Part shown: piece after piece, positions 3,286-49,598 of the stretch
Layout: each line of letters opens with the position of its first letter
Numbering within the stretch: position 1 is the stretch's first letter
Origin: Pseudopedobacter sp.
GTDB taxonomy: Bacteria; Bacteroidota; Bacteroidia; Sphingobacteriales; Sphingobacteriaceae
Direction of reading: 5' to 3'
Assembly: GCA_014378105.1 (NCBI GenBank)
Contig: JACMOI010000080.1
Span: 1-49,598 of the forward strand
Length of the DNA stretch: 49,598 nt
Notes under the pieces: generated by a model
Told to the model about the DNA's origin: nothing
Databases searched by the model: none
Seen by the model: the letters and a program-made list of their open reading frames with translations, nothing else
Position numbers and translations under genes: made by a program

Positions 3286-5766
3286 TTAATATGGATCAAC
3301 ATCTACTTGAACAAATATTCCATTATTTATATTATCTGATTCAAAATCTGCTATTTTTTCTTTAATTAAACTCTTAATTTTTGTAACCGATTGGTTTTTC
3401 CAATCCATTTTAATGATGATAGTTTGGATATAATAATTCCTGATTCTTCCTATTAAAGGTGATTGAGGACCTAAAACCATCTCTCCTAAATGATGTCTCA
3501 AAAGCTTTCCTAAATTATCAGCCATCAATAATAGCTTTCCTAAATCTTTGTGCTTTAAATCAATATGAATTATTTTGTAATAAGGAGGATATTTAAATTG
3601 TTTTCGTTCGATCATTTCTTCACGATACATGCCCTCATAATCATTATCCACAATCTGCTTAATAATTCTATGTTTTACATCATAAGTTTGGATAATTACT
3701 TTCCCTTGCTTATTTCTTCTACCTGCTCTTCCTGCTACTTGAGATAGCATCTGAAAACTTCTTTCATAAGCTCTAAAATCAGGAAATTGAATAATACTAT
3801 CAGCATTAATAATTCCAATTAAAGTGACATTATCAAAATCAAGACCTTTAGCTACCATTTGAGTGCCCACTAAAATATCAATCTTCTTATCTTCAAAATC
3901 ATTTAAAATAATGGAATGTGCATTTTTATTTCTGGTGGTATCGTAATCTAACCTCGCAATTTTCGCTTCTGGCAAAATCACTTTTAAATCATCCTCCACT
4001 TTTTCGGTACCTAAACCTTTGTATTCAATATGCTTAGAGCCACATGCTGGACATTCTGTAATATTTTCTTCTTTATAACCACAATAATGACAGTGCAATT
4101 TCCCAGAAGCCTTATGGTAAGTCAAACTCACATCACAATTGATACATTTTGGAGTATTACCACAAGTTTTACAAATTAAAACGGGGACATAACCTCTCCT
4201 ATTTTGAAAAAGTATGATTTGCTCTTTTTTGTCTAATTTCTCTTGAATCTGTTTAAGCAGTACACTTGTGAAATTCTCCTTTATTAACTTTCTGCTTCTT
4301 TCTTCCGAAATGCTGACCACTTCAATATCAGGCATTTTCACTCCTCCATATCTGATTGTCAGCTTTACCAAACCATATTTACCATTTAAAGCATTGTAGT
4401 AAGTCTCTAAAGCTGGCGTGGCTGACCCTAAAAGTAATTTGGCGTTAGTTAATGCTCCTAAAACAATCGCAGCGTCGCGGGCATTGTACCGAGGTGCAGG
4501 ATCATATTGCTTAAAACTTGCCTCATGTTCTTCATCAACTATAATTAATCCCAAATCAGAAAAAGGAAGGAATATAGAAGACCTTGCTCCTAGAACAATT
4601 TTAATTTCATTATTTAACACTTTCTGCCAAATTTCTGCCCTTTCATTATCATTAAACTTACTATGATAAACGATAATTTGATTGCCAAAATAAACCTGAA
4701 GTCTTTCAATCATTTGACCTGTTAAAGCAATTTCTGGTAAAAGATAAAGCGCTTGCTGTCCTTTTTCTAAATACTCTTCAATGAGTCTAATGTAGATTTG
4801 GGTTTTACCCGATGAGGTGATGCCATGTAAAAGCGTTACGCTTTTATCAATAAAAGATTCATTAATCTGTTTGAGTGCTTTTAATTGATGATCGTTAAGT
4901 ATAAAATCAGAAGGAATAGAATTGTCACCTTCGGCAAAACGGCTCACAACTTTATCCTTTTGAATAAATATATCCTTATCTATTAACGCTTTAACTATCC
5001 CACTGCTAACGCTAGCAGCTTCTAAAAGATCAGATTTTTTAATCTCTGTCTTTTCCTTCTTTAGTTTTAGGTAGGCTAACAAAGCATCTAATTGTTTCGG
5101 TGCTCTTTCTAAAATTTCAAAAAGTTGTTTAAGATTTTCCTTATCATCATAAAAATCATTTAACTGGATGATGGCAACTCTTTTAGGCTGATATTTTTCA
5201 CTGATCTCTTCAGAAATAAAAATAATTTTCTTTTCTAAAAGAGATTTTAATAACGGGAAGACTGATTTTTGAGCTAAAATTTTAGTGATCTCATTGATAC
5301 TCAACTCGTGTCTCAGTTCTAATGCGTCAAGAATAAGAAACTCCTTATCATTTAATAGGTTTCTATCAAATTCATGTTCGAGGTTTAGGATTATACGAGT
5401 TTCACTTGCTAGTTTTAATGCTGATGGTAATGCCGCAGCCATTACCTCACCTAAAGTACAGAGGTAATAATCAGCAATCCAATGCCAAAATTTTATTTGT
5501 GTTTCCGAAACTATCGGTTGATCATCAATAATATCCAATAGATATTTAGCTTCATATTTTTCAGGAGCTAGTTTAGAAACCTTATAGATGATTGCTGTAT
5601 AAATTTTGCTTTTACCAAATTGTACAACCGCCCTTCGGCCCTGCTGTGCATAAGAATTAAGGTGGACAGGCACTCGATAAGTATAGGTTTTAGGAATTGC
5701 TAAAGGCAATATGACCTCAACAAACAAAGTTTGATGATTTAACTCACCTATTTCAAAGTCTATCAT
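3286..5766 (-). CDS. priA: Primosomal replication helicase PriA
   Basis: Restarts stalled replication forks: a 3'-5' superfamily 2 helicase that recognises branched DNA and loads the primosome. The 826 aa chain has the N-terminal 3'-DNA-binding region (LPLAIPKTYTYRVP), Walker A GITSSGKT, the DEEH box, and the eight-cysteine zinc cluster in pairs (CKTC, CINC, CHYC, CPAC) between helicase lobes. It ends with the GTQMVAKGLDF and QVAGRAGR motifs. The start codon directly abuts the stop of the DUF423 gene upstream, so the two are probably co-transcribed. Confidence 0.97.
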   Translation of the reverse strand: MIDFEIGELNHQTLFVEVILPLAIPKTYTYRVPVHLNSYAQQGRRAVVQFGKSKIYTAIIYKVSKLAPEKYEAKYLLDIIDDQPIVSETQIKFWHWIADYYLCTLGEVMAAALPSALKLASETRIILNLEHEFDRNLLNDKEFLILDALELRHELSINEITKILAQKSVFPLLKSLLEKKIIFISEEISEKYQPKRVAIIQLNDFYDDKENLKQLFEILERAPKQLDALLAYLKLKKEKTEIKKSDLLEAASVSSGIVKALIDKDIFIQKDKVVSRFAEGDNSIPSDFILNDHQLKALKQINESFIDKSVTLLHGITSSGKTQIYIRLIEEYLEKGQQALYLLPEIALTGQMIERLQVYFGNQIIVYHSKFNDNERAEIWQKVLNNEIKIVLGARSSIFLPFSDLGLIIVDEEHEASFKQYDPAPRYNARDAAIVLGALTNAKLLLGSATPALETYYNALNGKYGLVKLTIRYGGVKMPDIEVVSISEERSRKLIKENFTSVLLKQIQEKLDKKEQIILFQNRRGYVPVLICKTCGNTPKCINCDVSLTYHKASGKLHCHYCGYKEENITECPACGSKHIEYKGLGTEKVEDDLKVILPEAKIARLDYDTTRNKNAHSIILNDFEDKKIDILVGTQMVAKGLDFDNVTLIGIINADSIIQFPDFRAYERSFQMLSQVAGRAGRRNKQGKVIIQTYDVKHRIIKQIVDNDYEGMYREEMIERKQFKYPPYYKIIHIDLKHKDLGKLLLMADNLGKLLRHHLGEMVLGPQSPLIGRIRNYYIQTIIIKMDWKNQSVTKIKSLIKEKIADFESDNINNGIFVQVDVDPY

Positions 5767-6153
5767 TTATTTATCTTTCACAGCAGCCAACAACAAACTT
5801 AACCATCCTAAAATAAAAAATAAACCTCCAACCGGAGTGATAGGACCAAGAAAACTAACTGACTCCCAATGAAAAACATTTTTTAAAGCCATCAAATATA
5901 AAGAACCACTAAATAGTATGATTCCGGCTACAAAGCAGTAAGATGAAAAATTGATGATGTTATTTTTAAACCGGGCAAAAGTAGATAGAAACAAGAGTGC
6001 AAAAGTGTGGTAAAAATGATATTGAACAGCAGTATGCCAGATCTCCATCTCATCCGTTGTAAGAATCTTCTTTAAGCTATGTGCGCCAAAGGCACCAAAA
6101 ACTACGGCTAACATTCCGAAAATTGCGGCTGATATAATAATTCTTTTATTCAT
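5767..6153 (-). CDS. DUF423 (YgdD-like) small membrane protein
   Basis: A 128-residue integral membrane protein with about four hydrophobic helices. It begins with a membrane helix containing the family hallmark FGAFGAHSLKK and continues to WHTAVQYHFYHTFALL and FSGSLYLMAL, then GPITPVGGLFFILGW, all typical of DUF423. Its molecular function is unknown. It is the promoter-proximal gene of a two-gene unit with priA. Confidence 0.9.
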   Translation of the reverse strand: MNKRIIISAAIFGMLAVVFGAFGAHSLKKILTTDEMEIWHTAVQYHFYHTFALLFLSTFARFKNNIINFSSYCFVAGIILFSGSLYLMALKNVFHWESVSFLGPITPVGGLFFILGWLSLLLAAVKDK

Positions 6154-6222
6154 TTTTAAGGTTTCAAGGTTTCGCTAATTTAATAAAGATGAATCCAATT
6201 TTCAGCCTTCAATTCAAAAATC

Positions 6223-6230
6223 TATTTTTG
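6223..6230 (+). promoter_or_regulatory. Bacteroidota -7 box for the 6251-9380 gene pair
   Basis: TATTTTTG matches TAnnTTTG exactly. The predicted start point leaves about 14 bases of leader before ATG 6251. Confidence 0.5.
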
Positions 6231-6250
6231 TTGCTAAGGATATTTTAAAA

Positions 6251-7882
6251 ATGAAGAAGATTATAGTGATCATAAGTTTACTTTTTTTAGGAATAATTGC
6301 GGTTACTTGGCTTTACTTTAAAAGTATGTCAGGTGTAGAAGGATCCAAGGAAAGTGTGTTTAAAGTAATCCCTGATAATGCTTCTCTAGTTTTTGAATAT
6401 AAAAATGAAAACTCATTTTACGATATTTTTAAAGATTTTGGTCTTTTTAAAGACGTTTTAGGAAACCAAAGTATAGATCATTTAGGTGCATTAAAAAGAA
6501 TATTTGTTGATGATAAATCAATATCTGGCGTGTTTAATAAAAGTGATTTGTTCTTTTCTATTCATCAAACAGGAAAAAGTAAGTCAAATATTTTAATAAT
6601 TGCCCCTTTTGGTAAAGATTTGAATTTATCAGAATCTGAAATGATTGAGTTAATAAAGACGAAATATAAAATAATCAAAGATTCATCTGCTTCAGATCAT
6701 TCCTATCAAATTGCTTTCAGTAATCAATCTAATTTCCACTTCTATATCCATCAAAAAACATTGATAGGAAGTTTTGACAAAAGCTTAGTTGAAGAAAGCA
6801 AAGCGAAATTAACAAATGGGAAATCTGCTAACCAATTCAAGATAGATTTTACGAATCCAAGAAATAGAAATTCAATTGCCAATCTTTACATCAATTTTGC
6901 TAAGCTCCCTAATTTTTTAAATAATTTCTCCTCCAGAAAAAATCCTGCAGAGACTTTTTCATTAAAATCTATCGATGCAACAGCTTCTTTAAACATCAAT
7001 TATCAAAGCAATGCTTTTATGTTTAGCGGGATTACTGAAGTGAATCAAAAAGCGACTAACTATTTCAATCTATTCTTAAATCAACAGCCTGGACAAAATA
7101 CTTTGCGGAATATTATTCCGAATGATGCAGCAGATTATTCTTTTTTTTATGTCTCAGATTTTAAAAGGTTTAGAAAAGGTTTAGATAATTTATTTATTTT
7201 AAGAAAAGAATCAGAAAAACTAAAAACTCAGTTAGAAAATATAAGAACTAAACATTCTATAAATATTGATCAAGAATTGTTACCAGTTTTAGCAAACGAG
7301 TTTGGTGTTGTCCAATTAGCCTCTGGCGATAAAATTGGAATTGTAAAAACAAATAATACCAACCGGTTATCCTTCTTATTATCCACTATCAGTTCTCCAT
7401 CTGAAGATCAAATTAAACACTTTGATGATTCATTTTTACTTTATTATTTCTTAGGCGACCCATTCAAGTATTTCCGCAGACCTTATTATGCAATTGTAGA
7501 AAACCATCTAATTGTTGCAAATAATAGCAGTGCTTTAAAAAGATTTTTAAATAGTTATAAAAAGCAAGATTTCTTAATCAGAACGGATAAAAACATTGTT
7601 TTTCAGCAATATTTATCAAATCAGGGGAATATATTTTATTTTATCCATAACAGCAATTCAAAAGCTATTATCAGTTCCTTTTTAAATTCTACTTCTTATA
7701 CGGCTTTTAAAAGTGACGATTTTAAATGGACAGATATTTATGGTTTGGCGATTCAATTTAGTTCAGACAAAGACCGATTCTTTACCAATCTATATATGAG
7801 TAAAATACCCTACCAAGGTCAATTGCTGCCAAAAGTTGATTCATTGATGATTGACTCGCTTACGCAATCAAATAAAAAATAG
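6251..7882 (+). CDS. Membrane-anchored protein of unknown function (DUF3352-like)
   Basis: 543 residues with a single N-terminal membrane helix (residues 3-24) and a long extracytoplasmic part. After the anchor come IPDNASLVFEY, repeated strand-rich blocks, and late segments on the theme YYAIVENHLIVANNSSALKRFL. The layout resembles DUF3352-type proteins, but the match is from memory and weak. It lies 31 bases upstream of the next gene in the same direction, so the pair is probably one transcript acting in the cell envelope. Function is unknown. Confidence 0.6.
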   Translation: MKKIIVIISLLFLGIIAVTWLYFKSMSGVEGSKESVFKVIPDNASLVFEYKNENSFYDIFKDFGLFKDVLGNQSIDHLGALKRIFVDDKSISGVFNKSDLFFSIHQTGKSKSNILIIAPFGKDLNLSESEMIELIKTKYKIIKDSSASDHSYQIAFSNQSNFHFYIHQKTLIGSFDKSLVEESKAKLTNGKSANQFKIDFTNPRNRNSIANLYINFAKLPNFLNNFSSRKNPAETFSLKSIDATASLNINYQSNAFMFSGITEVNQKATNYFNLFLNQQPGQNTLRNIIPNDAADYSFFYVSDFKRFRKGLDNLFILRKESEKLKTQLENIRTKHSINIDQELLPVLANEFGVVQLASGDKIGIVKTNNTNRLSFLLSTISSPSEDQIKHFDDSFLLYYFLGDPFKYFRRPYYAIVENHLIVANNSSALKRFLNSYKKQDFLIRTDKNIVFQQYLSNQGNIFYFIHNSNSKAIISSFLNSTSYTAFKSDDFKWTDIYGLAIQFSSDKDRFFTNLYMSKIPYQGQLLPKVDSLMIDSLTQSNKK

Positions 7883-7913
7883 CAATTTTAACTTTTAAAA
7901 ATTAAATTTAGAG

Positions 7914-9380
7914 ATGAAGAAAAGTTTATTTCTGTTCTTTATTATTTTGACGCCAATACTTTCTTGGGCGCAAAATATTTCACTTACTCATTCCGGAACT
8001 TTATACGATGCCTCAGAAAATCCTGTTCAAAAAAGTTTTCAAATAGATTTGAGTAGAAAGTATCAAGTCACCATGCTTCCTGCTATTAATGTTTTTATTT
8101 ATTTTAAAGGAGATGCTACCAATTCTTTTAAAAACCTACTCATTAATAAGACTTTAATAGGCGCCGATTTTTCTAAAGTCACCCTTGGCAACGCAAATTC
8201 CAATCAAATCAATCTTAATGGAAATTTATATTTATTTAATTACAGGATTTTTAGAACTTTAGATTACAACAGAGAGTTAGGTTTTTCACTCCAATTTAAA
8301 GACGAGGCAAATGGAAATATCACTAATGAGACTTTTGCCTTATTGGACTCCTATCAAAATTTTAAAAAATCATCTTATCAAGATATTTTAAATAGCAATG
8401 GATACAATCAATCCTACTGGCAACTAAGTGTAAACTATAGAGAAAATTATAATGATAAATGGGCTTTTGGAGGAAAATTTAGCTTATTAGATGGTGCTAC
8501 TTACAATAAAATTGATATACAATCATCTGGTATTCAAATTTTTTCGAATAATTCTTTTGAAGTACCCCTAGTTGGAAACTACACTTCGAGTTTTGGGAGA
8601 GATAGTTTTACTTATAAGAAAATTCTACCTGATTTAAGAAACATGGGCGCTGCAATAAGTGCTGGAGTTTCTTACACTTCTAAAAAAGGAACCTATCTAA
8701 CTTTCAATATCAAGGATTTAGGATTTATACATTGGAGTAAAAAGACATCATATTACAATTTTGATAATACTATTAGAGTTGAAAATGCAAACTCAAATGA
8801 TGCAAGCTCTAGATTTTTTAGTGACTTTGGAAAAATTATGAATAACAATGAAAGCAAAAAAAGATTTAACTCTTTAATTGATACAAAGTTAGATTTTGCT
8901 GCATCTAAAAATTTCGATTTTTACACCCCAGTTTTTGTAATCTCTAAAAGTGTCTTTAATCAAAATGGACAAATTGCACTTCTTAATAACCTAAGAAGAA
9001 ATGCTTTTGTATTTAGTTTCAACCAAATTTATGATTTTAGAACGCTATGGAATTTTGGAAGCCAAATACTTATTCAATCAGCAAATGCTGAGTTTTATTT
9101 AGGCTCTGAATCTATATTTCCTTCTTCTCAGCTAGCAAAGAGCTATTTTAAAAAGGATTTAAACTCGGCTGGAAACTCTAAAGCAAATTTTTATTTAGGA
9201 TTGAATGTGAAGTTTGGTAGAAAAATGCAAACCATTGGTAACGCTGACGAAATTCCTGGTTTAAATGATGAAGAAACTGGATTTGTAGTACGCTTATCTA
9301 AAAAAGATAAAAGAGCGGCTCAAAAAAAGGCTAAACAAATTAAAACTAGGAGAAAAAAGAATAATAAACGAAATAATTAG
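7914..9380 (+). CDS. Predicted outer-membrane barrel protein (DUF5723-like)
   Basis: 488 residues with a signal peptide ending at LSWAQ (residues 1-19). The body has the layout of DUF5723 family proteins of Bacteroidota: a segment like FQIDLSRKYQVTMLPAINVFI, an NLYLFNYRI strand, and many predicted amphipathic strands such as LGLNVKFGRKMQ. The C-terminus, after about residue 440, is an extended lysine/arginine-rich tail (KKDKRAAQKKAKQIKTRRKK), unusual after a barrel and presumably outside the membrane. Its 3' end overlaps the convergent tsaB by four bases. The family assignment is tentative. Confidence 0.6.
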   Translation: MKKSLFLFFIILTPILSWAQNISLTHSGTLYDASENPVQKSFQIDLSRKYQVTMLPAINVFIYFKGDATNSFKNLLINKTLIGADFSKVTLGNANSNQINLNGNLYLFNYRIFRTLDYNRELGFSLQFKDEANGNITNETFALLDSYQNFKKSSYQDILNSNGYNQSYWQLSVNYRENYNDKWAFGGKFSLLDGATYNKIDIQSSGIQIFSNNSFEVPLVGNYTSSFGRDSFTYKKILPDLRNMGAAISAGVSYTSKKGTYLTFNIKDLGFIHWSKKTSYYNFDNTIRVENANSNDASSRFFSDFGKIMNNNESKKRFNSLIDTKLDFAASKNFDFYTPVFVISKSVFNQNGQIALLNNLRRNAFVFSFNQIYDFRTLWNFGSQILIQSANAEFYLGSESIFPSSQLAKSYFKKDLNSAGNSKANFYLGLNVKFGRKMQTIGNADEIPGLNDEETGFVVRLSKKDKRAAQKKAKQIKTRRKKNNKRNN

Positions 9381-10069
9381 TTCGATTTCTTTTTCCCTGC
9401 AATAAAATCTTTTAGATAAAAAGGCTCAAAATACGCTACATCTACAAAATCTTTTTGAAGATATTTTTGATGAGCTATTGCTGATAAATATTTAGCTGAA
9501 TTTTCAAAATCATCAATTAATCTAGCATTCAAATGAGTACTTAGAAAAGATTCACATTTCGTGGCACCATCTCCAAAGAAATAAATTACATGACTATCTA
9601 ACACTTCTTTAAAGCTATTTTCATCAATGATTTCTGCTTTAGTTTCTAAAACAACAGCTGTTTTTGAATTATAAATGGCACAATAAACTTCCATTCTTCG
9701 AGCATCTATCATGGGACAAAACAAAGTATCAGGATTAACTGAGAAATGATTGCTCAAAAACCCTGATGACATCGCTTCTAAAGTGTTTATAGCAATCAAG
9801 GGGATATCTAAGGCATAACACAAACCCTTTGCAGTAGAAACGCCTATTCTCAAGCCTGTATAAGAACCCGGACCCATACTAATTGCAATTGCATTTAAAT
9901 CCGAAAACTGGTAGTTATTTTTCTTCATCAATTCATCAATAAAAAGAGTGATAACTGATGCATGAATATTTCTTTCTGTACGTTCGATAAAATCTAAAAC
10001 AACTCCGTCTTTTGCTAAAGCGACAGAGCAAGTTTGAGTTGCCGTTTCAATTTGTAAAATTAGTGCCAT
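9377..10069 (-). CDS. tsaB: tRNA threonylcarbamoyladenosine biosynthesis protein TsaB
   Basis: Non-catalytic partner of TsaD in the complex that adds threonylcarbamoyl to A37 of ANN-decoding tRNAs. The 230 aa ASKHA-fold protein opens with LILQIETATQTCSVAL and carries ISMGPGSYTGLRIG and STAKGLCYALDIPLIAINTLEAM, the classic TsaB signature, followed by CPMIDARRMEVYCA. It is the last gene of the rpmH-rnpA-yidD-tsaB run, 19 bases after yidD. Confidence 0.95.
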   Translation of the reverse strand: MALILQIETATQTCSVALAKDGVVLDFIERTERNIHASVITLFIDELMKKNNYQFSDLNAIAISMGPGSYTGLRIGVSTAKGLCYALDIPLIAINTLEAMSSGFLSNHFSVNPDTLFCPMIDARRMEVYCAIYNSKTAVVLETKAEIIDENSFKEVLDSHVIYFFGDGATKCESFLSTHLNARLIDDFENSAKYLSAIAHQKYLQKDFVDVAYFEPFYLKDFIAGKKKSN

Positions 10070-10088
10070 TGTACAATTTTAATAAAAA

Positions 10089-10322
10089 TTAAGGAACCGG
10101 ATCATAACCATGTTTATGACTCCATGGATGGCACCTTCCTAATCGTTTTAAAGTAAGAAAACCACCCTTAAAAGGACCATATTTCTTAATAGCCTCGACT
10201 CCGTATTGAGAACAAGTAGGACTAAAACGGCATGATGCACCAGTTAGAGGAGAAATTAAGTATTGATAAGCTTTGATTAAAATCAAAAATAATAATCCTA
10301 TAATATTTTTAATGATTTTCAT
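10089..10322 (-). CDS. yidD: Membrane protein insertion efficiency factor YidD
   Basis: Small protein (77 aa) that assists YidC-dependent membrane insertion. After a hydrophobic or amphipathic N-terminus ([19 protein letters not shown]) comes the invariant core [15 protein letters not shown] and GRCHPW with three conserved cysteines. It overlaps the end of rnpA by 14 bases, the standard arrangement for this pair and suggestive of translational coupling. Confidence 0.95.
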
Positions 10323-45132: not shown

Positions 45133-45204
45133 GCATCCGTAGTTTAATGGATAGAATGTAAGATTCCGGTTCTTACGGTACAGGTTCGATTCCTGTCGGG
45201 TGCA
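45133..45204 (+). tRNA. tRNA-Arg (anticodon CCG)
   Basis: A full cloverleaf can be drawn. Acceptor GCATCCG/CGGGTGC (one T-G pair); D-arm with AATGGATA loop; anticodon stem TAAGA/TCTTA with loop TTCCGGT, giving anticodon CCG (reads CGG); T-arm ACAGG/CCTGT with TTCGATT; discriminator A. CCA is not encoded. Length is 72. Its 3' end borders the accessory region and may be the integration target. Confidence 0.95.
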
Positions 45205-45209
45205 CAATA

Positions 45210-46519: not shown

Positions 46520-46684
46520 TCATGGATTGATAGCTTTTAAAATGTTATCATTTTTTATCAATCTAACACTATTTGCTCTAATTGCATTATCACTTTTAGA
46601 GCTTGGATATGCCTTCTTATAAGCCTTGACTTTATTGCCATGCTTAATCATTTCATTAATAAAAACCCTCCACTCGTTCTTCAT
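46520..46684 (-). CDS. Terminase-small-subunit-like mini-protein (54 aa, possibly truncated)
   Basis: Read directly from the minus strand; ATG 46684 follows the preceding gene's TAA by one base. The protein (KNEWRVFINEMIKHGNKVKA, then YKKAYPSSKSDNAIRANSVRL, ending IKNDNILKAINP) has the pattern of the N-terminal DNA-binding helix-turn-helix of phage terminase small subunits: F...M..HGN...AY..AYP...D..ARAN..RL..N.NI. Full subunits are well over 100 aa, so this is either a remnant or a stand-alone DNA-binding domain. Assignment by pattern only. Confidence 0.55.
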   Translation of the reverse strand: MKNEWRVFINEMIKHGNKVKAYKKAYPSSKSDNAIRANSVRLIKNDNILKAINP

Positions 46685-46685
46685 C

Positions 46686-47075
46686 TTATCCAGCTAAAGT
46701 GTCATTTCTTAATTCCTTACTCAGTTCCAAAACTCTACGATTAAACCTTTCACCTTTAAAGTAAGCTTTACTTGAGCTAATGAAAGGCGTTATCGTTTGC
46801 CTGTGTGGCATGTTCATAACTGACGATAGTGTTAAACAAACATTATTCTCAACTTTAGTATCAAAATAGATAGTGCTAGGAGAGAATAATACTAGAATTG
46901 TGCTAATGAATAATATCCTATCCTCATAACTATCACCATAGCTAAGGCTGAACTTAGCAAACATTGGTTCGATTAAACTAGTATCGTTCAATACAGGTGT
47001 CATCTTTTCCCGAACGCTGCGGAATAGAGCGTTATCGTGAGATTCAATTACTTTACCTATTCTTGCATAGTTCAT
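46686..47075 (-). CDS. Unknown protein of the accessory element
   Basis: 129 aa, mixed alpha/beta composition, with no signal peptide; one hydrophobic stretch (ILFISTILVLFSPSTIYF) could be a buried core rather than a membrane helix. No family is recognised. It lies 44 bases after the VRR-NUC gene and one base before the terminase-like mini-gene, so it is likely co-transcribed with both. Confidence 0.6.
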   Translation of the reverse strand: MNYARIGKVIESHDNALFRSVREKMTPVLNDTSLIEPMFAKFSLSYGDSYEDRILFISTILVLFSPSTIYFDTKVENNVCLTLSSVMNMPHRQTITPFISSSKAYFKGERFNRRVLELSKELRNDTLAG

Positions 47076-47119: not shown

Positions 47120-47485
47120 CTAATTAGGAATCAGAATTGCAATAGGTTTTTGATAAACAATAGATTTAATAATATTTATAAAAGTTTCTGGTTCACGTAT
47201 CACGTGTACCGGTATGCCTTGAAGCTCCCATACCTTGTGGATCTTAACCTGTATGGGGCTTACGCTTCCTATGTCTGTTTTAAATTCAAAACCGTAAGCT
47301 TTACCCATCCAAAGAAATATAATGTCAGGAACGCCAGCTATCACGCCTGAAGCTTTTAATTGCATTCCCTCTAAAACATTACGTGATCCCCCATTCGGAA
47401 CATGAAAAATTAACCCACGAGTTTGAGGCATTTCATTGTATACCGTTTGGAAGGCTTTTGCTTGTATTTGTATTTCGCTTGGCAT
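47120..47485 (-). CDS. VRR-NUC nuclease
   Basis: 121 aa stand-alone VRR-NUC domain of the PD-(D/E)XK superfamily. Visible pattern: FHVPNGGSRN, LKASGVIAGVPDIIFL (the catalytic PD), YGFEFKTDIG (ExK) and SPIQVKIHKVWELQGIPVHV. Single-domain VRR-NUC proteins are typical of phages, where they act as Holliday-junction-type nucleases during replication or packaging. The gene lies directly downstream of the iteron array and is transcribed away from it. Confidence 0.9.
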   Translation of the reverse strand: MPSEIQIQAKAFQTVYNEMPQTRGLIFHVPNGGSRNVLEGMQLKASGVIAGVPDIIFLWMGKAYGFEFKTDIGSVSPIQVKIHKVWELQGIPVHVIREPETFINIIKSIVYQKPIAILIPN

Positions 47486-47598
47486 TCAGCTAATATAAAA
47501 CAAAATAACTACATATAACGAATTTGTCACTTCGTCACCTGTTTGTCACTGCGTTTGTCACTGGTTAATATATTGTATTTCAAATAGTTATATTAAAT

Positions 47599-47616
47599 AG
47601 TGACAAAAGTGACAAA
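47599..47616 (+). repeat. Inner iteron doublet, left arm of 18-base inverted repeat
   Basis: Two abutting AGTGACAAA units form AGTGACAAAAGTGACAAA. The exact reverse complement is at 47737-47754, 120 bases away, giving a perfect 18-base inverted repeat around the AT-rich core. Confidence 0.95.
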
Positions 47617-47736
47617 AATTTCTCTATGAGTTTACTATCTATATATGTGCGATGTGTTTTTATTTTATATATGCGTTTTTATATATATATATATTTTATT
47701 ATAATTTACTCTGTGTATACTCTCAATAGTGATTTA

Positions 47737-47754
47737 TTTGTCACTTTTGTCACT
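47737..47754 (-). repeat. Inner iteron doublet, right arm of 18-base inverted repeat
   Basis: TTTGTCACTTTTGTCACT, the exact reverse complement of 47599-47616. The spacing of the units within each doublet (nine bases) differs from the 8-19 base spacing in the outer clusters. Confidence 0.95.
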
Positions 47755-47861
47755 AGATTAGTTTAAAGTATTAATATACAGATAGTTAAGTATAATTTTT
47801 TAGTGACAAACTAGGTGACAAGTAAGTGACAAATTTTATAAATAGTGACAAATTTTAACAT

Positions 47862-47893
47862 AAAAAAGCCTCATAATTTTATTTATGAGGCTT
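47862..47893 (-). terminator. Terminator between the helicase unit and the iteron array
   Basis: Stem AAGCCTCATA / TATGAGGCTT (10 pairs, eight-base loop; 47866-47893) with T residues following on the minus strand (A-run 47862-47867). It isolates the origin from helicase transcription. Confidence 0.82.
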
Positions 47894-47916: not shown

Positions 47917-48198
47917 TTATTTAATTTTTTTATCGTATTCAGAAGTGCTACATAATAAAACATCTAAATAGTCTGTATTCTCCCATCCAAAAAAATCTAA
48001 ATTATTATTTATTGAAATAGGAATAATTAATGGTAAGCTTCGCTTATTAAGCTTCATTTTAATGAATTTAAATATCAAGAATATTTCATCCTCTGTTAAT
48101 GAGATATTCTTAGACCTATCATCCATTAACTTTCTTCCATTAAGAAATTTTGAAAGTTTTTTACCTTTGTAAACTAATTGATCTGTTAAATTTTCCAT
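47917..48198 (-). CDS. Unknown protein following the element helicase
   Basis: 93 aa, six bases after the helicase stop and just before the terminator, so co-transcribed with the helicase. It is rich in Lys, Leu and Asn, without signal peptide or clear membrane helix; the C-terminus is acidic/basic mixed (LLCSTSEYDKKIK). No family is recognised. Its position suggests a role in replication of the element, but nothing in the sequence proves it. Confidence 0.6.
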   Translation of the reverse strand: MENLTDQLVYKGKKLSKFLNGRKLMDDRSKNISLTEDEIFLIFKFIKMKLNKRSLPLIIPISINNNLDFFGWENTDYLDVLLCSTSEYDKKIK

Positions 48199-48204
48199 GT
48201 TATT

Positions 48205-49598
48205 TTATATAAATAAAAATTGTCTGTCACCTCCAGCTCCTCTTTTTTCCTCAAAATTAATCTTCTTAAATTCAAAAAATATTCTACACCATTTATAAAA
48301 AGAATTGCTTGTAAGTTTTGATTTTTGGTTTTCATGCATAAATTCATTGTACATAATAATCCTTGAAATCTGACCGAAAGGGTTATTGTTATGATCTTCT
48401 AACCAATCATTTATAAAGTCAATAAATGTAGATGATGTTTGAGCTATTAATTTCTTCTCTGGCAGGTGTATAAGCTCTTGCTGAACCAACCCTTGTAAGA
48501 TATAATGCATTGCGCATTCAGCCATGAAATTATCAAATGCATTCCATTCTTTATCATCCCAACCTGTAAACAATAACTTACCAAACTCATCAAATGGTGT
48601 ATGTTCTTTAGAATAATGTCTTGCAAGCTCTAATTCAAAGCGCCTACGGTCATTACTATTACCTTGACCACTCATTGCATAGTTTGTTGTAATAGTAATC
48701 TTAGGAGAATCCTCAAACGGTATTTTAAAAGCATCCCTATTTTTCTTTTCAACATCTATGCCCTCTGAAATTACGGAGAAAAGCTTCTCAAAATCAAAAT
48801 TCTTATTAACATCATCAAAGGCCATTATCTTAGTATCTAAATTTATCTTTTGATAAACAAAAGACTTATCAAAAGAAAACGTTTTTCCATCAAATGATAC
48901 TGACTTTTTAAAATACTTCAGTGCATTAATAAGAAGGCCTTTACCAGTACCACCCTCTGGATGATCGCTTATGACTTCATCATTAAGAATAACAGCAGGT
49001 GAGTAAGAAGGATCTTTATAATCGTTCATTAAATATCCTAAGGCTGATGTGATTGAAATGTATCTTTTAGAATCTTTTCCAGAAACATTATGAACAAAGT
49101 TTTTAAAATCACAATCAGAATTATCAGAGTAAATGAAATTTCTATTTAGAATCTGTGTGTTCCATATATATCCATCTAAATCATCGTAATCCTTTAATTC
49201 AATACCTAATGAGCTGACTTCTACAAATCCATTTAAGTAAAAAATGTATGTATTATCCTTATTATCTCTTACAAATCTAGCTTCCTCGTCTGGCAAAATA
49301 TTTAACCTTGTAGTTACATATTTTGTATTTTCCTTCATGAATTTTTCAAAAACATTACAAAGCTTTTCATAATCATCTGCTTCTTCTTCTTTTATATAGT
49401 CTTTTAGACTATCCTGAAACTGCCTATGAGTAATCATTTCGATAATTTTACCTTTAATGTGTATTACATTATCTCTATAATTAAATAGCCCTAATCTGCT
49501 CGATACATAAATTAAATTTTCATAACTAACTGATAGTTTTTCTAAATCTTCATCATACTTAATAAATGTCCCATAAGGATGATCTTCCTGAATGGCCA
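48205..49598 (-). CDS. Superfamily 3 helicase of phage D5/primase type (5' end outside window)
   Basis: At least 464 residues. The frame stays open from ATG 49437 through the window edge (upstream codons encode EDHPYGTFIKYDEDLEKL and further residues), so the true start is outside. SF3/AAA+ motifs: Walker A PEGGTGKGLL, Walker B KIMAFDDVNK, sensor KITITTNYAM and arginine finger NDRRRFELEL. Such helicases, often with an N-terminal primase, replicate phages, satellites and plasmids and bind their own origin. The iteron array lies just downstream. A winged-helix-like C-terminus (SNSFYKWCRIFFEFKK) may help binding. Confidence 0.88.
   Translation of the reverse strand, partial: AIQEDHPYGTFIKYDEDLEKLSVSYENLIYVSSRLGLFNYRDNVIHIKGKIIEMITHRQFQDSLKDYIKEEEADDYEKLCNVFEKFMKENTKYVTTRLNILPDEEARFVRDNKDNTYIFYLNGFVEVSSLGIELKDYDDLDGYIWNTQILNRNFIYSDNSDCDFKNFVHNVSGKDSKRYISITSALGYLMNDYKDPSYSPAVILNDEVISDHPEGGTGKGLLINALKYFKKSVSFDGKTFSFDKSFVYQKINLDTKIMAFDDVNKNFDFEKLFSVISEGIDVEKKNRDAFKIPFEDSPKITITTNYAMSGQGNSNDRRRFELELARHYSKEHTPFDEFGKLLFTGWDDKEWNAFDNFMAECAMHYILQGLVQQELIHLPEKKLIAQTSSTFIDFINDWLEDHNNNPFGQISRIIMYNEFMHENQKSKLTSNSFYKWCRIFFEFKKINFEEKRGAGGDRQFLFI

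Follow-up and report, generated by a model that had tools for sequence, protein, structure and literature searches.

At one end of a contig of Pseudopedobacter sp. (GCA_014378105.1, JACMOI010000080.1) a helicase gene cut by the contig end is followed by a gap that holds short repeats in mirror symmetry. What does this array do, and which protein would read it? The whole stretch analysed, 49,598 nucleotides, is called the window in what follows. Our answer is that the array is very probably a replication origin of the kind known from phage-inducible chromosomal islands and Staphylococcus aureus pathogenicity islands (PICI/SaPI), that it lies in a probably phage-derived mobile element and that it would be bound by the C-terminus of the helicase; we infer both the origin function and the binding. 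A sequence-only reading, made from the letters with no database searches, had proposed such an origin, and it is supported and right in substance.

Twelve 9-bp sites mirrored around an A+T-rich core

Twelve sites form a single array at 47523-47852. Ten are exact copies of AGTGACAAA and two are near copies with 2 mismatches each, GGTGACGAA at 47531 (minus strand) and GGTGACAAG at 47814 (plus strand). From left to right four sites point outward and two inward, a 120-bp core follows, then two sites point inward and four outward. The parts of the array and the helicase gene are:

47523..47562, minus strand: outer left set of four sites (47523-47531; 47531-47539, near copy; 47542-47550; 47554-47562)
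47599..47616, plus strand: inner left tandem pair, period 9 (47599-47607, 47608-47616), a pair also present in relatives
47617..47736, no strand: A+T-rich core, 120 bp, 80.0% A+T, the proposed melting region
47737..47754, minus strand: inner right tandem pair, period 9 (starts 47737 and 47746), inverted relative to the left pair
47802..47852, plus strand: outer right set of four sites (47802-47810; 47814-47822, near copy; 47825-47833; 47844-47852)
48205..49596, minus strand: superfamily 3 (SF3, D5-like) helicase, the proposed initiator; 463 codons visible, 5' part beyond the contig end

The spacings of the outer sites, taken from the inside out, are 12, 11 and 8 on the left and 12, 11 and 19 on the right. 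The core, which contains a TA run at 47680-47694, has 80.0% A+T against 66.8% for the whole window. In all these respects (ten exact and two near copies, their positions and orientations, the 4/2/core/2/4 layout, the spacings, the A+T-rich core with its TA run) the sequence-only reading was reproduced. It had also put the origin just downstream of the helicase. The place 3' of the gene stands, but the array edge is 352 bp past the helicase stop with one 93-aa open reading frame (ORF) and a terminator in between, and a sister group of phages has its sites 5' of the gene.

All exact copies of AGTGACAAA in the window (10/10) are inside the array. The whole 3.35-Mb draft genome contains 30, i.e. 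the 10 of the array and 20 on other contigs, while the reversed pattern of the 9-mer, used as a control in the same genome, occurs 31 times. Thus there is no excess outside the array, nor does the 9-mer show the enrichment of a regulator site used across the genome. This count had been proposed as a check of the origin, and it comes out in its favour: the word is concentrated at the array only and is elsewhere at control level. In the other 430-bp stretches, sampled at 100-bp steps across the first 47 kb, no 9-mer exceeds 4 copies. If one mismatch is tolerated, the window has 17 copies against a shuffled mean of 17.9, so that the signal lies in the clustering and layout and not in the total count. 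Order-2 shuffles of the gap itself reach at least 10 copies of some 9-mer in 16 cases out of 1000, possibly as simple A+T runs. Since shuffles of so A+T-rich a gap can give ten copies of a word, the weight rests on the layout and on the comparison with relatives.

The helicase and the PICI/SaPI kind of origin

Pfam recognises only DUF5906 in the neighbouring helicase, and thus no Rep_3/RepA initiator of the classical iteron-plasmid type. A structural model, for which 29 sequences were aligned, reaches a mean pLDDT (predicted local distance difference test) of 88. Its residues 408-462 are arranged as a strand, two helices and a two-strand hairpin, which on our reading of the model would be a C-terminal winged helix. 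The best fold match in the PDB is the SaPI5 primase-helicase (7ola, E 3.4e-12, TM-score about 0.5); the matches ranked after the SaPI5 chains are monkeypox virus (MPXV) E5, AsfvPrimPol and NrS-1. Against the PDB sequences a profile search gave no match and a single-sequence search two weak, irrelevant ones.

The visible part of the helicase stops at the contig end, and it is in relatives that the primase half can be read. Among the five relatives with a complete N-terminus this half is BT4734-like in four (L010, L036, L021 and L011; relatives are designated by locus number), while that of plasmid pSR14 gives TOPRIM and zinc-ribbon matches, both sub-threshold. The array layout is seen with both types. 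The primase type may therefore be exchanged while the helicase and the origin layout stay.

PICI origins lie directly 3' of rep with two iteron sets flanking an A+T-rich region, and a fragment carrying rep and the origin keeps a plasmid maintained (PMC6092414, in part). SaPI Rep recognises its origin via its C-terminal domain (PMC7581432, in part). The locus in the window has the same build: the array is 3' of the helicase gene, its iteron sets surround an A+T-rich core, and the model together with the fold match suggests the corresponding initiator, a D5/SF3 helicase with a predicted C-terminal DNA-binding domain. The SaPI analogy made in the sequence-only reading holds, the SaPI5 protein being the closest solved structure and the PICI layout matching as far as the cited part of PMC6092414 describes it. 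We also read the origin of EcCICFT073, an Escherichia coli PICI, directly: it has tandem TGTCTACC pairs of period 9, inverted, plus 11-bp-spaced sites. The nesting differs, since in the window the pairs flank the core with the sets of about 11-bp spacing outside, whereas in EcCICFT073 the pairs are outermost. The carriers differ as well, with phages and plasmids among those described here and with 5' sites in one phage group. What was known already is thus the PICI/SaPI kind of origin; here it appears with another nesting and in other carriers. The window element itself we do not file as a PICI, its contig ending within the helicase.

A further related case is SCCmec (staphylococcal cassette chromosome mec) Cch2, a relative of SaPI5 Rep, whose C-terminal domain binds a region 3' of its gene in dependence on direct repeats (PMC7581432, in part). 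It shares with the window a D5-type helicase beside repeats 3' of its own gene; it differs in that, in the part of that source cited here, only three iterons of 5 nt are reported and the primase is a separate, polymerase-type protein.

On the origin reading, a protein of the primase-helicase type would bind the 9-bp sites through the winged helix at its C-terminus. Two helicase assemblies, presumably hexamers, would be set head to head across the core by the inverted inner pairs. The A+T-rich core would then melt, and the two helicases would leave in opposite directions, which would make replication bidirectional.

Arrays of other sequence beside related helicases

The relatives compared are a sample (80 of at least 569), and 44 regions were taken with flanks (43 from the listed matches and one other; the rest, such as G300, G269, G234, G419 and second pieces, were left aside). 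Repeats appear soon past the helicase stop in L010 (ATGACGCAA), L021 (AGTGATAAA), pSR14 (CTGGACCAC), pSR31 (GGTGTCACA) and L101 (ATTACAAA); in L036 the repeat is again ATGACGCAA, behind an intervening DUF4238 gene. Chromosomal relatives provide nine further arrays beside the helicase, four of which (L219, L203, L184, L193) resemble the window in having the inner inverted pair. In L220 and L221 the arrays are long and made of palindrome-like sites (AGTGTACA, AGTGTCAC), spaced unlike those of other relatives. Where present, the shared element consists of a tandem pair with a period of 8-9 bp, its inverted counterpart and, between the two, a core of about 58-120 bp; extra sites, often 11 bp apart, are found outside the inner pairs. 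The core is above the locus average in A+T in 11/11 arrays listed. Thus the suggestion that helicase homologues be examined for repeats of their own is borne out, a good part of them carrying different repeats at the same place. A search of the open-access literature found no description of the mirrored layout in Bacteroidota phages or plasmids.

To put numbers on adjacency, 144 loci falling into 55 clusters at 70% identity were scanned, with up to six overlapping scan windows per cluster (L019, which has no downstream DNA, and L025 were unscored; L024, L026 and L027 were replaced by the longer L202, L183 and L199). A score of at least 6 beside the helicase is reached by 15/55 clusters, the locus studied here included, against 1/847 control windows; that one control window is phage Leef_1's own array. 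With a single scan window at the helicase stop the same score is reached by 11/54 clusters. Scores of at least 5 are found in 19/55 clusters (13/54 for the single stop window) and in 7/847 controls. The mirrored double pair, when scanned for, turns up in 13 of 103 loci (five of which are near-copies of a single phage) and in 1 of 103 shuffled ones. Viral contigs searched with the pSR14 protein gave no match.

Three of the plasmids compared, pSR14 (L032), pSR31 (L116) and pSR11 (L235), are circular elements of Salinibacter, 11-32 kb in size; they encode ParA and a terminase family protein, and look phage-plasmid- or satellite-like. L021 is compact (about 3663-10190), with a tyrosine integrase, helix-turn-helix genes, the primase-helicase and an origin-like array; no phage structural gene was recognised among its listed ORFs, and it too appears satellite-like.

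Site letters and the helicase C-terminus

The helicases of pSR14 and pSR31 differ at 44 of 774 columns: 30 in the N-terminal half, only 4 in residues 312-750 and 10 in residues 751-774. Their repeats, read on the same strand, are GTGGTCCAG and GTGTCACAG respectively and differ in the middle letters. By our reading the equivalent of the recognition helix is identical in the two proteins, and the wing is where they differ at the C-terminus.

The L209 cluster (7 loci) offers a second comparison. There the inner-arm sequence tracks the winged-helix segment (r 0.61, p 0.010) whereas the correlation for the helicase core is r 0.10; corrected for the core, the partial r is 0.61 (p 0.0099, all 5040 permutations). 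Judged from these sequence comparisons, site specificity seems to follow the helicase C-terminus. The C-termini of this cluster are far more variable than the core, down to 14/45 identical while the remainder is 361/423, as if specificity shifts fast.

Points that weigh against an origin

Several observations weigh against the origin reading. The first is that 36/55 helicase clusters are without an adjacent array at the score-5 cut-off. Helicases kept with their repeats gone had been named beforehand as evidence against an origin, and this is in part what is seen, beside the 19/55 with an array. The layouts, moreover, are not uniform. Five of the nine chromosomal arrays deviate: in L218 the pairs are outermost, the core of L214 is about 41 bp, and L194, L220 and L221 are without an inner inverted pair. 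The outer sites also vary in orientation: those of the window run counter to the inner pair, those of L010 in parallel with it. The array layouts (L010, L021, pSR14, pSR31, L036, L101 and the nine chromosomal ones) were picked by eye, as were the arms in the L209 correlation, which is in addition a small set. GC skew of the pSR14, pSR31, L010, L036, L101 and L011 records is without a clear origin signal, and may follow gene direction.

Finally, several large phages carry similar sites 5' of the helicase start, with fewer clean copies. An 11-bp periodicity before the start codon is found in two lytic clusters (means of 0.49 for 27 loci and 0.61 for 31 loci, against 0.27 and 0.285 for random stretches), is less marked in the L069 cluster (7 loci; 0.45 vs 0.29) and is not seen in the L011 cluster (8 loci; 0.245 vs 0.295); this test was chosen after such spacing had been noticed in 5' arrays. 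In the tree the window, L010, L036 and L101, all labelled 3', form a supported group. L011, L085, L028 and L108 (5') share a sister group with L184 (3'), and the fork separating the group is weakly supported. The 5'/3' labels of some tree rows were assigned by eye.

A stem-loop, an accessory site or another function?

Mirror symmetry could also serve to extrude a cruciform or single-stranded hairpin recognised by its shape, as proposed for the archaeal plasmid pRN1. We hold such a stem-loop origin to be unlikely. The array strand does fold far better than its shuffles (z -7.8, 0/100). The pRN1 protein ORF904 joins a primase, an SF3 helicase and a C-terminal winged helix, and a required element lies just 3' of the gene (PMC4234260, in part). 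That element is a stem-loop in which one stem change was tolerated only with the symmetry restored, and which its authors describe as without typical iteron structure, according to the same part of PMC4234260. A hairpin, however, needs no tandem copies in its arms, and the nine arms that we compared are tandem repeats (period 8-9, identity 0.78-1.0). Several 5' arrays, furthermore, have outer sites on one side only.

The pRN1 stem itself (L230 5080-5190) has TGTCCA twice per arm with a 9-bp period, the arms being inverted and separated by a core of about 58 bp. The four copies of TGTCCA in the plasmid are all in the stem, as two inverted tandem pairs. When five pRN-family stems are pooled, identity peaks at lag 9 with 0.53 (other lags 0.17-0.33), a value that 0/5000 shuffles reach. 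Taken one by one, the pRN2 and pHEN7 stems have shorter repeats at period 9, and pDL10 and pSSVx are individually weak; the stem used for pSSVx, whose record has no replication gene annotated, is the strongest inverted repeat within its initial 900 bp, shortened to 18 bases. An exact inverted tandem 6-mer is present in 4 of the 9 plasmids scanned (pRN1 and 8 of the 43 other records), including pRN1, Salinibacter pSR11 and two from Lactobacillaceae with apparently the same array; the scan of pHTUR06 gave no inverted pair. The window array can fold yet is an iteron array, and the pRN-family stems carry a period-9 repetition. From these sequences, the pRN1 origin may itself be an iteron origin.

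A second possibility, which we consider improbable, is an accessory cis element like crr of satellite P4, bound by the helicase while replication starts at a second site elsewhere. P4 resembles the present case in its alpha primase-helicase, which has a repeat-binding C-terminal winged helix (PMC4234260, in part). Its crr is 3' of the alpha gene after a terminator, with 8-bp type 1 repeats that are tandem (period 9) and inverted. P4 differs in having a separate origin, ori1, with the same repeats as crr. The plasmids pSR14 and pSR31 are complete, and each has all copies of its exact 9-mer (6/6 and 7/7) in one array, with no second cluster like P4 ori1, so that the two cis regions of a P4-type replicon are not found there; the window element is incomplete. 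The exact 9-mer is likewise confined to the array in the 57-kb record of L036 (7/7) and in the 20 kb examined of each of the L010 (7/7) and L011 (4/4) records; in the L101 record 7/12 copies of the 8-mer are in the array. Since the exact 9-mer is in one array only while P4 has a second region, the array is more likely the origin than an accessory site.

That a transcription regulator of the element uses the sites as operators is very improbable. Promoter-like matches in and around the gap number 12 against 7.5 expected (standard deviation 2.8), but the layout is symmetric about an A+T-rich core and not about a promoter, arrays are found next to the helicase again and again in elements whose neighbours differ, and the sites change along with the helicase C-terminus in both sets examined (pSR14/pSR31 and the L209 cluster). 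Least probable of all is a site for partition (centromere) or packaging: in L036 a gene for the terminase small subunit follows, L010 has a sub-threshold terminase match, and pSR14 and pSR31 encode ParA, but ParA is at least 8 kb away from the array in both plasmids, and L021 has the layout with an integrase and no terminase recognised among ORFs of at least 80 aa (three scanned with Pfam). The operator, centromere and packaging readings are all ranked below the origin reading.

A possible common origin grammar

A wider generalisation, on which we are evenly divided, would be a single origin grammar for D5/SF3 primase-helicases of bacteria and archaea. It would consist of an inverted tandem pair (8-9 bp period) flanking an A+T-rich core some 60-120 bp long, to which extras spaced by about 11 bp are often added, the letters drifting with the winged helix; the pRN stem-loop would be its minimal form, and the layout would be widespread in Bacteroidota phages and plasmids. 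If this is true, each phage, plasmid or satellite has a private origin. The layout suggests a simple sequence rule for locating origins beside a group of phage and plasmid primase-helicases. The arrays described here extend to phages and plasmids a layout called unique to PICIs in a survey (PMC6092414, in part). Natural pairs like pSR14 and pSR31, in which the origin and the C-terminus differ and the helicase domain hardly does, permit a direct test of origin recognition by this helicase group, and the recognition target of the pRN1 protein becomes a testable question.

Genes around the array

Leftward on the minus strand the order is helicase, 93-aa ORF, terminator-like stem, array, VRR-NUC-like nuclease and 129-aa ORF. 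The features beside the array are:

47917..48198, minus strand: 93-aa ORF between helicase and array, with no confident family
47866..47893, minus strand: intrinsic-terminator-like stem and T run, separating the helicase and the 93-aa ORF from the array
47120..47485, minus strand: VRR-NUC-like nuclease (phrog_824/phrog_93; phage relatives annotated VRR-NUC), the next gene past the array
46686..47075, minus strand: 129-aa ORF, a weak relative of an equally placed 141-aa ORF in L036 (21% identity, E 3e-10, single comparison)

A VRR-NUC-like nuclease gene is also next to the array in L010 (65% identity) and in L036. Both are virus contigs, L036 with its terminase small-subunit gene and L010 with the sub-threshold terminase match. 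Since this gene is common to the two virus contigs, the window element is probably phage-derived. Searches of the draft genome for the N-terminal half of the helicase and for the terminase small subunit of L036 found neither. A 54-aa ORF at 46520-46684 was considered as a fragment of a terminase small subunit and dropped (E 12 against the L036 terminase). No integrase family was recognised in the ORFs scanned between a tRNA-Arg gene and the array, on a contig that ends within the helicase. This tRNA-Arg(CCG), at 45133-45205, immediately follows ychF, on the left border of the phage-like genes, and is a possible attachment site. In L036 the DUF4238 gene between helicase and array (5262-6278) is on the opposite strand, and none is there in L010 or in the window; the place is a possible cargo spot.
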